Virus record (IMG/VR): IMGVR_UViG_3300023297_000020
Span: 1-43,310 of that record
Length of the DNA stretch: 43,310 bases
Direction: 5' to 3' (one strand)
Origin: a virus
In this document: one piece after another, positions 10,825-28,900 of the stretch
How the letters are laid out: every line of letters begins with the position of its first letter
How positions within the stretch are numbered: the stretch's first letter is position 1
Position numbers and translations under genes: made by a program
The notes under the pieces: generated by a model
What the model was told of the DNA's origin: nothing
Database searches by the model: none
What the model saw: only the letters and a program-made list of their open reading frames with translations

Positions 10825-10886
10825 GTAGAATGAAATAGAAATCATAAAGAAAAAGCAATTAGAATGAATTAAAAATTTTATAATGT

Positions 10887-11199
10887 AGGGAGTTGGTATA
10901 GTAGGTGATTACGGCGGGCTTTAGCTATATAACAAATTGGAGCGTATACATAGAAATGTGTATATTGAATTCTCTCAAATTCGGGGAAACCTTTGAAATG
11001 GCAATCCCGAGCTAAGCCTTAATATAAGGAAAGTGTAGAGACTTAACGGGAGAACATCTAAATTATTTTTTTATAATATGATGAAGAGAAAGTCCAGACC
11101 ACAAACAATTTTTAGAATTGGTAGTGAAAACTATAGTGGTAAGCAAACCCGTATCCGTCCAAGGAGTCAAAGTGGGTTCGAGTCCCACACTCCCTGCCA
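10887..11199 (+). tRNA. tRNA-Trp(UCA), UGA-decoding, interrupted by a group I intron
   Basis: 5' exon 10887-10921, 3' exon 11144-11199 with CCA encoded. Acceptor AGGGAGT (10887-10893) pairs with ACTCCCT (11189-11195), then G73 and CCA. D-stem GTA/TAC with AGTAGG in the loop. Anticodon stem GCGGG/CCCGT. T-arm GTGGG-TTCGAGT-CCCAC. After splicing the anticodon loop is CTTCAAA, anticodon UCA, which reads UGA (and UGG). A1-U72 and G73 fit bacterial tRNA-Trp identity. Odd: the variable region (11153-11171) is 19 bases, as in Ser/Leu/Tyr tRNAs, so charging by TrpRS is inferred from identity bases and codon context. Confidence 0.88.
10922..11143 (+). ncRNA. Group I self-splicing intron in the tRNA anticodon
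   Basis: 222 bases. Conserved core elements in order: P (10977-10992), Q (11003-11018), R (11033-11050, GTGTAGAGACTTAACGGG) and S (11084-11095, AAGAGAAAGTCC), resembling the cyanobacterial tRNA-Leu intron. P7 is GACTT (11040-11044) with AAGTC (11090-11094). P1 pairs exon GCTT (10918-10921) with GAGC (10940-10943), giving the required U-G at the 5' site. P10 pairs TTG (10937-10939) with CAA of the 3' exon (11144-11146). The intron ends in G (11143). It contains no reading frame. Insertion is between positions 34 and 35, so the anticodon exists only after splicing. Confidence 0.9.
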
Positions 11200-11289
11200 T
11201 TTTGTAAACGCAAACATACCAATCATTTAACAAATTAAATTAAAATCAAAAAAAATAATTTCTTCAATACTTATTAGAGAAGGGGTTAA

Positions 11290-12117
11290 ATGTATAAAAT
11301 GAATAACTTTAATGAAGACTTAGACAAAAAAACTAGCGGAAGGCGTGGCACTACTGGAACAAAATGAATTACAAATGGTAAAAAAAATAAATTAATTCAA
11401 CGAGAAGATATAGAGAAATGATCAAAAGAGGGCAAATGATATGTTGGCAGAATTATAAATGGTGCAACCTTATCAAGTATAATACATAACAACAAAAAAA
11501 GAATAGACTATAATATTGATTGTTATAATTTTAATGCATCAATATTAATTCCTTGAAAAAATCAGATAAATGCAAATGATGTTGTCTTTTATGTTTATAA
11601 AACAACAAACACAATTAATAACAAAATTTATATTGGGGTAAGAGGTTCAAAAAATATTAATACAGATTTATATATGGGTTCTGGCAAATTAATTAACAAA
11701 GCTATAAAAAAATATGGCAATGGCAATTTCAAAAGAGAAATATTATATGAATTTATAACTGAAAAAGAAGCCTATGACAAAGAATTTGAACTAGTTAATA
11801 TAAATTTTATTAAAAAAGGAAATACATATAATATTAATATAGGTGGATACGGTGGTTTTACGTCGCATTCGGAAAAGACTAAACAAAAAATGAAAAATTC
11901 TGCAAGGGGGGCTCATGTTGGGAACAAAAATTCTCAATATGGAACGAAATGAGTTTGAGACCCAAAAACAGGCGAAACAAAAAAAATTACAAAAAAACTT
12001 GTAGATGAATATCTTAGTAAAAATACCAATTGAGAATTTGGCAGACCAAGACATACAGCCAAAACAAAGCAAAAAATTTCAAATAGCATGATGAGAAGAA
12101 ATGCTATTAAAAAATAA
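11290..12117 (+). CDS. GIY-YIG homing endonuclease (Seg-like)
   Basis: 275 residues, open only with TGA as Trp (about nine TGA codons). The catalytic GIY-YIG segment is FYVYKTTN...NKIYIGV near residues 97-117, followed by YMGSGKLI and KYGNGNF. The C-terminal part has a KTKQKMKNS DNA-binding repeat (NUMOD3-like), later echoed by KTKQKISNS. It starts 90 bases after the intron-split tRNA. A GAGAAGGGG ribosome site supports 11290; an in-frame ATG at 11299 is possible. Inferred role: free-standing homing nuclease acting on this locus or spreading the tRNA/intron region. Dense TGA use means long residence in this recoded phage. Confidence 0.85.
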
Positions 12118-25925: not shown

Positions 25926-28900
25926 ATGGCCGACATTATAGAAGTAAAGCACGAAGAAACCCTTTTGACCTTAACTGAATCCAGAAGACAAGAACTTGAA
26001 AAACAGAGTAAGATAAAAGATGAAATATCCAAGCAAGACGAAAAAATATTGGAGATGGAAAAGGAAAAGGATAAATGACAAGAGAAGACAAGAGCGGAAA
26101 ACGAAAAAATACTTAAAGATTTGAAAGTGCAAAGGGCATTTAATTCTAAAGATTTAAAAGTTTTACAACAAAAAGCAAAAGCAGAAGAGGACAAACTTAG
26201 TTGGGCGTCAGGAATGAAAAGTTACGCATTGAAAATGTCGAAAGAACTTAAAAAACAAAATCGTTCTGTTGAAATTGGATTGGACTTGTCAACAAAACAA
26301 GCTTTGTTAAATAAAATACAAGATTCTTATGCTAATGGCGCAAGTGAAGAAGCAATTAATCAAGGCAAAGGTGCGAAAATTCTTTATGAGATGCAACAAA
26401 GGTTAAACGACGAAGCTGAAGCTGGCAATGTAATAGACAGAAGCAAGGCCGCATTGTTAGAGGAGTACGCTCAACAAATGGGCACAAATTTAGAATCAAT
26501 GAGCGAAAGCCAACGTAAGTATGCCGAAGGAATAATTGCACCTTTCCAAATCGCACATCAAAAATTATCTGACATGACAGGGGAAAATTTAGAAAGTTTA
26601 GTAAATGTAAATTCTCAATTAAGCGAAATGGCCGGAAGATGAGACAAAACGAAAAAGGGCGTTACAGATGTTAAAGATTTAGTTTCTGGATTGCTTAATA
26701 ATCCTGCGTTATCAGCAAGTATATTTGGGTATGAGGTTGGAAAAAAAGCCATAGAGCTTGGTAAATCATTTGGTGATATATTAAATACTGGAATTAGTGT
26801 TGAAAATGTAATAGGTGAAATGGGATTAAGTATGGGTACGGCTACCTTAGCAAGTTTGAAATATGGAGCGTCGGCCAAAGAAGTTTTAGAAGCAACGAAA
26901 GCTATAACTCAAGAAATGGGTTCGATTGAACATGCCACTCACGAAAATGTTAAAGGTGCCGTTAAATTAATGAAACTTTATGATATGGATGCGAGTTCTG
27001 CGGCAAAAATAACAAAAGAATTTTCACAAATAGGTAAATTAACTGGACAAACAAATGAAGAATTGCGCTCATCAGTGGCAGAAATGGCTAACTTGAGCAA
27101 AGTTGCACCAACGGCAGTATTTGAAGATTTATCAAGTAATGCCGAAGCAATGGCAAAATGATTAGACGCAAGTGGCAAGAATATGATTGGACTTTCTGTA
27201 TCATCAAGACAATTGGGATTATCCATGGGAGATACGTTAGCAATGACAGAAGGTATATTGGATTTTGAAAGTTCAATTGAAAAGCAAATGACGGCATCGG
27301 TAATGACAGGTAGAAGTTTTAATTTTGAGCAAGCAAGAATGTTAGCATTTGCTGGTGACCACGAAGGTGCGTTGAAAAATATAGTTTCACAATTAGGTAC
27401 AGAACAAGAGTTCTTACAAATGAATGCATACCAAAGGCAATCAATGGCTGATATGTTAAATACATCGGTTGGTAGTTTAAAGGATATGATTATAAATCAA
27501 AACAAACTTGGAAAAGAAACTGGAAAATATAGCAAGCTTTTAGAAGAAATAGGCGGAATAGTGAAGGGCGGGTTTTCGCTTATTAACAAAGACAATATTA
27601 TTATGATGGGCTCTTTAGTAGGTACTATAAAAAACTTAGGTCTTGATAAAATTATTGGGCAAACAAAAGTATGAATGGGATTAACGACAGGTGTTAAAAA
27701 TCTTTGAGGAAAAGTTGGAGCTTTGATGCCTGGCGGTAATGCGCTTAAACAAGCACAAAAATCATATTCTGATAAACAAATAGGAATTGGACTTGGCGGA
27801 AAGAAAGCAAAAGATTTATTAGCCAAAAAAAGTCTAAAACTTGCCAATAAAGAAGCCAAATCACAGACCGCTAATGCAGTCAAGGCAAAAGCTAAAACTG
27901 TAGCCCAATCAAAAGCTGAAACTGTAGCCCAATCAAAGACCGCCGGCGTAACTAAGTCAAAGCTTGGTGCAGCCGCAAGAGGCAAAGATATAAAAACGAC
28001 ACCAGCAACGAAGGGTGTCGGTAGCAAAGTAACTAAAGTCGATAAATCTGGTGGTAAGGGTGGAGTTGCAGGGTGAATAAAGAGTTGAGATGGCGTTAAA
28101 TGAGAAACTTTAGGTAAGATAGCAACAGCACTTTTGATTATTGGAGTTGCAATATTTGGGTTTGGAAAAGTAATAGCATCATTACCAACAGATCCAGCGC
28201 AATATCTTGCGGCAGGAGTAATGATGGTTGGGCTTATGGCTTCAATTTGGGCTATATCAAAAATATCAAAAAAGATTGACATGAAGAGTCTTGTTAGGGG
28301 TGCGGCCGCAATGGTACTTATAGGCGCCGCATTGATTCCATTTGCATTTGCTTTAAGTTTGATGGAAGGTGTTAGCTGAAAAACACTTGCGATTGCCGGC
28401 GTAGGATTAGTTGGACTTGCGCTCGTAGTTGCAGGGCTTGGTGCAATTATGCCTCTTATATTATCGGGAGCATTGGCGTTAGGTGCTATGGGATTGGCAT
28501 TGATTCCATTTGCATTTGCTTTAGGTTTAATGGAAGGCGCTAGCTGAAAAACACTTGCAATAGCAGGGGCAGGCATAGTAGGTCTTGGCATTATAGTATC
28601 TGGACTTGGTGCAATTATGCCTCTTATTTTAGCAGGGTCAATAGCGTTAGGTGCTATGGGATTGGCATTGATTCCATTTAGTGTTGCTATGAGTAAATTA
28701 CAAGGTGTTAAATGAGAAAATCTTAAGGGAGCAGGCAAAGCATTGAGCGGACTTTCTTGGGCTATAATAAAACTTGGTGCAATAATGGCAACTGGTGTCG
28801 GCGCTTTAGTTTTTGGAGCTGGTATTTTGGCATTAATTAGTTTAAGTGGTGCGTTAATGAAGTTTGGCACAGCTTTAGGAGTTCTTTCAAAAAATGCAGA

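Follow-up and report, generated by a model that had tools for sequence, protein, structure and literature searches.

In bacteria and plastids, the tRNA-Leu(UAA) gene can be interrupted between U34 and A35 by a small group I intron without an internal open reading frame (ORF), whose splicing creates the anticodon (reviewed in PMC3984707). The phage introns known at the time of that 2014 review were all located in protein genes. Introns have also been noted in tRNA genes of the recoded Lak megaphages, where they were called enigmatic and, in the portion of the report considered here, were assigned to no intron class (PMC6784885). Other recoded phages, which use genetic code 4 (crAss-like phages and others), encode an opal suppressor tRNA-Trp with the anticodon UCA (PMC7886860; PMC12386605), and theta ribozymes, which resemble the hepatitis delta virus (HDV) ribozyme, mature suppressor tRNAs and have been suggested to act as a code switch (PMC10879173). 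The locus described here is a tRNA gene with a group I intron in its anticodon, located in a phage genome fragment that corresponds to the entire IMG/VR record IMGVR_UViG_3300023297_000020 (43,310 bases, hereafter the window). It is probably, although well short of certainty, an opal-suppressor tRNA-Trp that was split by a mobile group I intron and that carries an additional CCA-containing arm for tryptophanyl-tRNA synthetase (TrpRS).

Default ARAGORN calls no tRNA anywhere in the window. In intron mode, the program calls a single tRNA (10887-11199) with anticodon UCA and an intron of 222 nucleotides (nt) inserted between standard positions 34 and 35 (Table 1). Once the intron is removed, the joined sequence is called as a UCA tRNA without intron mode too, which bears out what a sequence-only reading of the window had proposed about the exons. 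The 3' exon ends with G73 at 11196 followed by an encoded CCA (11197-11199). The strongest evidence for the splice sites comes from a natural intronless allele in a sister phage (L005, IMGVR_UViG_3300035698_018540), which has the same tRNA without the intron. Window 10872-10921 aligns with 6178-6129 of L005 and window 11144-11201 with 6128-6069, with zero bases between the two segments. Because the exons abut in L005 at 10921/11144, the junction is fixed independently of any model. Comparison of the window tRNA with that of L005 shows a G-C pair replaced by U-A at 31-39 of the anticodon stem and a variable-arm stem that is longer by one base on each side, paired changes as would be expected of real helices. 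Two further contigs of the same virus carry an intron identical to that of the window, the next nearest recoded relative (L021) has no tRNA of this kind on its partial contig, and blastn of the spliced tRNA against named phages returned only short matches in the T arm. Neither the rest of the window nor 37.5 kb of adjoining sequence from this virus, whose genome is incomplete, yielded a further UCA tRNA. Since the UCA anticodon exists only after splicing, every TGA-containing gene of the phage would require splicing unless a second tRNA with that anticodon is available.

The intron belongs to group I. The covariance model Intron_gpI of Rfam (RF00028) matches positions 10912-11115 over its full length (model positions 1-253) with 67.5 bits (E 3.5e-17; gathering cut-off 50 bits) when a short region is searched with permissive filters; with the default filters and the whole window the match is lost. 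The intron has both a group I core and the set formed by the P1 U-G pair, the terminal G and P10, and the splice sites that the earlier reading had deduced from P1, P10, P7 and the final G coincide with the borders given by the empty allele. When the window intron was aligned with 57 distinct related phage introns and compared with shuffled controls, pairing exceeded that of the controls in P3 (96% vs 63%), P5 (100% vs 72%), P6a (83% vs 59%) and P8 (100% vs 79%), while P2 lacks support in this alignment (39% vs 34%). P4 and P7 are too conserved for this comparison, and P9 and P9.2 belonged to the motif by which the introns were selected. As also proposed earlier, the unspliced precursor is unable to read UGA, because the anticodon is made only by splicing.

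That the phage is a T4-like tailed phage follows from the gene families recognised in the window, which include those of a head-tail adaptor, tail sheath, tail tube, baseplate, UvsX, single-strand binding protein and RNase H-like exonuclease. Many of its genes are interrupted by TGA if read in the standard code and are whole under code 4. In standard-code relatives, the residue opposite a window TGA is tryptophan in 226 of 398 cases, compared with 653 of 1000 for TGG; phenylalanine is second for both codons, and serine is too infrequent at TGA to enter the listed residues. On this alignment evidence, TGA is therefore a tryptophan codon in the window phage. Its share of the tryptophan codons is 46% in the genes of the window (82/178) and 44% in the adjoining replication genes (16/36), but only 9% in a distal region of the same virus (11/123), a heterogeneity exceeded in none of 2000 permutations. 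The replication genes that contain TGA include those for a DnaB-like helicase and ribonucleotide reductase; the tRNA would thus need to be ready before the late genes.

An additional layer of complexity, overlooked in the sequence-only reading, resides in exon 2, in which the variable region forms a second anticodon-like arm. This region has 19 nt in the window tRNA and 21 nt in that of L005, instead of the 4-5 nt of class I tRNAs. In both, it is predicted to fold into a hairpin with U-CCA-A in the loop, on a stem of 3 base pairs (bp) in the window and 4 bp in L005 (TCCG-GTCCAA-CGGA, a paired insertion relative to the window); the loop of the window arm has 6 nt, and most relatives have a 5-bp stem with a 7-nt loop. 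The same arm is present in other UCA tRNAs interrupted by introns of this family (loci L090, L145, L174 and L175), and in L145 (ACGGT-CTCCAAA-ACCGT) it is a perfect Trp anticodon stem-loop. The recurrence of the arm was assessed by scanning IMG/VR with the UCA loop and the T loop fixed and the variable region free, and by repeating the scan with a different T loop; a prediction was recorded between the two scans. In the resulting tally of distinct ARAGORN-called UCA tRNAs, sampled by exact pattern and pooled from both scans and the intron-bearing cases, TCCA occurs in the variable region of 37 of the 37 tRNAs with a long variable region (at least 15 nt) and of none of the 21 with a short one, and anywhere in only 12 of 306 other long variable regions from the same loci. 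The loop reads N-U-C-C-A-A-N in 36 of the 37, and the stem varies with compensation: assuming a 5-bp stem and a 7-nt loop, 165 of 185 positions pair, whereas 1000 controls with the 3' flanks shuffled among sequences averaged 95 and reached at most 114. Among 1596 distinct tRNAs, only two non-UCA tRNAs have a comparable hairpin, with loops unlike the Trp anticodon loop. At 27 of the 37 loci, reading TGA opens more coding sequence than reading TAG; some show the reverse.

In the model that we favour, the tRNA would be interrupted between U34 and C35 by a mobile group I intron whose family is specialised for the anticodon loops of phage tRNAs, and self-splicing of the intron in vivo would join U34 to C35-A36. 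The UCA anticodon so formed would decode TGA as tryptophan in structural and replication genes. The mature tRNA would carry the U-CCA-A loop as a second, Trp-like anticodon hairpin in its variable region. This extra CCA loop may keep or restore recognition by the host TrpRS, leaving the UCA loop to act on the ribosome, and the two arms perhaps stack alternatively on the D stem. The role suggested for the CCA arm stems from the fact that TrpRS reads C34-C35-A36 as a main identity element and that the decoding anticodon has lost C34. Whether this division of labour extends to a whole class of phage stop-reading tRNAs, with a UCA arm that decodes UGA, a variable-region CCA arm recognised by the host TrpRS, and the window tRNA as a compact member with an anticodon made by a group I intron, appears to us evenly balanced. 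Because the window arm is short, its function is less certain there than in the members with a 5-bp stem.

Bacterial TrpRS recognises G73, A1-U72, the acceptor pairs 2-71 to 5-68, A9 and C34-C35-A36 (PMC9976931). The window tRNA has G73, A1-U72, G2-C71, G3-C70 and G4-C69, matching the bacterial Trp set (Table 1 of PMC9976931); C34 is missing from its decoding anticodon, and CCA is found in the extra arm instead. Within the class, G73 is present in 34 of the 37 tRNAs, as is A1-U72 or G1-U72. In another member, L300, the 3' portion beginning with the CCA arm has matches of 82-89% to ordinary tRNA-Trp(CCA) of phages, and the D arm and first arm match an unannotated tRNA-Trp of Bacillus phage Eldridge. 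Because both portions resemble tRNA-Trp, tandem duplication of a Trp anticodon arm followed by a C-to-U change in the first copy would be a simple origin. Several observations weigh against the favoured model. The G5-C68 and A9 elements of the bacterial Trp set are absent from the window tRNA, and its arm is weaker than those of most relatives. The long variable region of L405 contains no TCCA, although L405 is called Phe by ARAGORN, lies outside the 37 and is likely an exception. Moreover, 8 of the 21 UCA tRNAs with a short variable region have A1-U72 and G73; the extra arm is thus no universal requirement. Single-linkage clustering outside the variable region merges 34 of the 37 tRNAs, and, with ancestry shared among them to some degree, recurrence is not a count of independent origins.

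The intron is part of a large family. A search of IMG/VR with a 23-base stretch from the 3' end of the intron gave at least 120 matches. The last ten bases of this motif occur at 209 places in the loci from two scans, and 105 tRNA genes are called with an intron ending there, of which 65 are tRNA-Leu(UAA), 12 are called Tyr(ATA), 7 are Met and 4 are UCA, the remainder being others; one of the four UCA calls (L138) looks like a shifted call. The Tyr(ATA) and similar calls probably represent another tRNA with a shifted boundary. At the IMG/VR loci L062-L260, a single family of group I introns is widespread in the anticodon loops of phage tRNAs, chiefly tRNA-Leu(UAA), and genes split in this way are overlooked by default tRNA finders. 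In 33 of 43 tRNA-Leu introns, the guide TTTGAG faces exon AAA; in the introns of the window, L090 and L175, the guide TGGAG faces exon CA. The intron thus has the appearance of a mobile element suited to anticodon loops starting with CUU, and tRNA-Leu(UAA) is a likely source from which it would have moved. Partial blastn matches to the intron were found in a 735-kb uncultured phage, in Pelagibacter phage HTVC120P, where the match sits between two capsid-annotated ORFs, and in crAss-like phages; these matches inform kinship, not function.

The extra arm could be explained without TrpRS, as an ordinary class II variable arm (of the Ser, Leu, Tyr or selenocysteine (Sec) type) in which CCA was inherited without a role in charging, serine charging being conceivable. 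Some members indeed have Ser/Leu-like or tRNA-Sec-like D arms, G73 is common to Ser, Sec and Trp tRNAs, and TCCAAA occurs in the variable arm of some bacterial tRNA-Sec genes as well, although these were found with a pattern that required TCCAAA. This is nonetheless unlikely, as an inherited arm would have to account for a loop that stays fixed while the stem changes compensate, for the absence of TCCA from most other long variable regions, for the predominance of A1-U72 or G1-U72, and for the alignment of TGA with tryptophan, with serine below the listed residues. It is very unlikely that the CCA arm is the original UGG decoder, to which a UCA arm was added with switching by D-arm stacking, or that it is a decoy for host anticodon nucleases. 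The half of L300 from CCA to the 3' end does resemble ordinary tRNA-Trp(CCA), and both arms of L145 are perfect anticodon arms of 5 bp and 7 nt. However, U34 in a UCA anticodon generally reads UGG as well, so that a separate UGG reader gains little, and no evidence for a nuclease was found.

The intron, too, has been given another role. The sequence-only reading presented the arrangement as a gate on recoding, in which regulated splicing times the translation of the TGA-containing genes. A UGA reader that depends on splicing is upheld by our analysis, but an evolved control step is not, and we consider it quite unlikely. In favour of a gate, this gene logically cannot give a UGA-decoding tRNA unless it is spliced, TGA use differs among the three regions compared above, and a role as a code switch has been proposed for the theta ribozymes, which are processing ribozymes adjacent to suppressor tRNAs (PMC10879173). 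Yet L005, the closest relative, is recoded (one in-frame TGA in UvsX and six in the neighbouring endonuclease gene) and intronless. Most UCA tRNAs of the two-anticodon class also lack an intron: only three of the 37 are of intron-bearing origin (window, L090 and L145), L174 and L175 being further intron-bearing cases. The intron family mostly interrupts tRNA-Leu(UAA), in which no recoding is involved, and the sequence gives no pointer to a splicing regulator. Transcription timing of the tRNA gene alone could produce the partition of TGA, which is consistent with a tRNA supplied in the course of infection; splicing as a timer is not needed. Because its family resides mainly in tRNA-Leu(UAA) and other tRNA anticodon loops, the intron is best read as a mobile intron and not as a conserved control.

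Table 1. Window coordinates of the interrupted tRNA, its intron and the adjacent gene.
Feature	Position	Strand	Description and basis
tRNA 5' exon	10887..10921	+	acceptor 5' strand AGGGAGT, D arm, anticodon stem GCGGG, loop C32-U33-U34; ARAGORN intron mode and L005 homologue
Group I intron	10922..11143	+	222 nt, terminal G 11143; RF00028 67.5 bits, pairing in 57 relatives, exact absence in L005
P1	GCTT 10918-10921 / GAGC 10940-10943	+	terminal U-G at 5' splice site; sequence
P10	guide TTG 10937-10939 / exon-2 CAA 11144-11146	+	sequence
P3	10970-10976/11048-11054	+	alignment with related introns
P4	10980-10985/11006-11011	+	alignment with related introns
P5	10990-10991/11000-11001	+	alignment with related introns
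P6a	11017-11020/11026-11029	+	alignment with related introns
P7	5' strand 11040-11043, 3' strand 11091-11094	+	alignment with related introns
P8	11055-11058/11080-11083	+	alignment with related introns
P9	11098-11102/11136-11140	+	alignment with related introns
P9.2	11121-11125/11130-11134	+	alignment with related introns
tRNA 3' exon	11144..11199	+	C35-A36-A37-A38, anticodon stem, variable arm, T arm, acceptor 3' strand; ARAGORN intron mode
Extra variable-region hairpin	11154..11165	+	TCC-GTCCAA-GGA, CCA 11159-11161 in loop; minimum-energy fold of spliced tRNA (predicted)
GIY-YIG endonuclease-like gene	11290..12117	+	code-4 ORF just downstream of tRNA, 7 in-frame TGA

The product of the endonuclease-like gene downstream of the tRNA matches the Pfam family SegE_GIY-YIG with E 4.4e-4, under the curated cut-off, and its seven in-frame TGA codons make its own translation dependent on the spliced tRNA. 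Endonuclease-like genes are among the most TGA-rich (7 TGA and 0 TGG in this gene, 3 and 0 in L052:6085-6915), even inside the distal region, where TGA is otherwise rare. The stretch AAATCATAAAGAAAAAGCAATTAGAATG (window 10838-10868), immediately upstream of the tRNA, resembles the 3' end of the L005 endonuclease gene (L005:6162-6917), which adjoins the intronless tRNA in that phage; the window stretch looks like a remnant after loss of the gene. The same virus encodes a tRNA nucleotidyltransferase of the CCA-adding enzyme family (L053:3757-5178, PHROG E 1e-58). In a relative (G001; L054:17695-20000 and L055), a ribonucleotide reductase-like region is split into several TGA-rich pieces, between which lie endonuclease-like or intein-like ORFs. 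A tape-measure-like gene of the window contains a direct repeat of about 184 bp with 85% identity (28329-28679).

Other observations concern the tRNAs. Three loci with a two-anticodon UCA tRNA (L303, L363 and L312) gain more coding sequence from TAG than from TGA reading, and are possibly doubly recoded or have an unused UCA tRNA. A two-anticodon UCA tRNA was also found in a 1.48-Mb Bacteroides neonati contig (L435, L446), apparently in a prophage, and a second member-like tRNA from the bacterial scan lies on a small contig of a Coriobacteriia metagenome-assembled genome. That scan, which required TCCAAA, returned mostly alphaproteobacterial tRNA-Sec-like genes, which were not counted as class members. 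The phage contigs L169, L344 and L366 carry tRNAs of the Trp(CCA) type whose backbone is class II (Ser-like) and whose variable arm is long. For the window tRNA itself, identity as tRNA-Sec was considered and rejected in view of its 7-bp acceptor and its ordinary D loop with GG, in place of the extended acceptor and the long D stem with a 4-nt loop that mark tRNA-Sec, and of the presence of TGA at Trp sites throughout many genes; SelA and SelB were not searched for.

In all, the window intron resembles those of bacterial and plastid tRNA-Leu(UAA) genes in its position, 5' U-G and terminal G, as well as in being small, without an internal ORF and creating the anticodon by splicing (PMC3984707), but it interrupts a phage tRNA, and one that reads a stop codon. 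With the opal suppressor tRNA-Trp of code-4 phages the window tRNA shares the UCA anticodon, the reading of TGA as tryptophan and the concentration of TGA in parts of the genome (PMC7886860; PMC12386605). Unlike those tRNAs, it is interrupted by an intron and is thus missed by default annotation, and its extra CCA arm is not described for them among openly licensed papers, in which no two-anticodon tRNA was found either. If it is the CCA arm that drives charging, a natural tRNA would divide decoding and amino-acid identity between two arms. Such a division would be relevant to changes of the genetic code and provide a design for orthogonal suppressor tRNAs. Suppressor tRNAs split by introns are invisible to default ARAGORN and default Rfam filters, which may explain some recoded phages that seemingly have no suppressor tRNA, a mismatch noted in PMC7886860. 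Like theta ribozymes, the window intron is a ribozyme that would mature a suppressor tRNA, although the former are HDV-like cleavers acting at the tRNA end (PMC10879173) and the latter interrupts the anticodon and is a splicing intron. Lak megaphages likewise have introns in tRNA genes of recoded phages (PMC6784885), and the one described here is of group I. Whereas phage introns were known only from protein genes in 2014 (PMC3984707), the anticodon loops of phage tRNAs commonly harbour group I introns, with at least 120 matches in the IMG/VR search.
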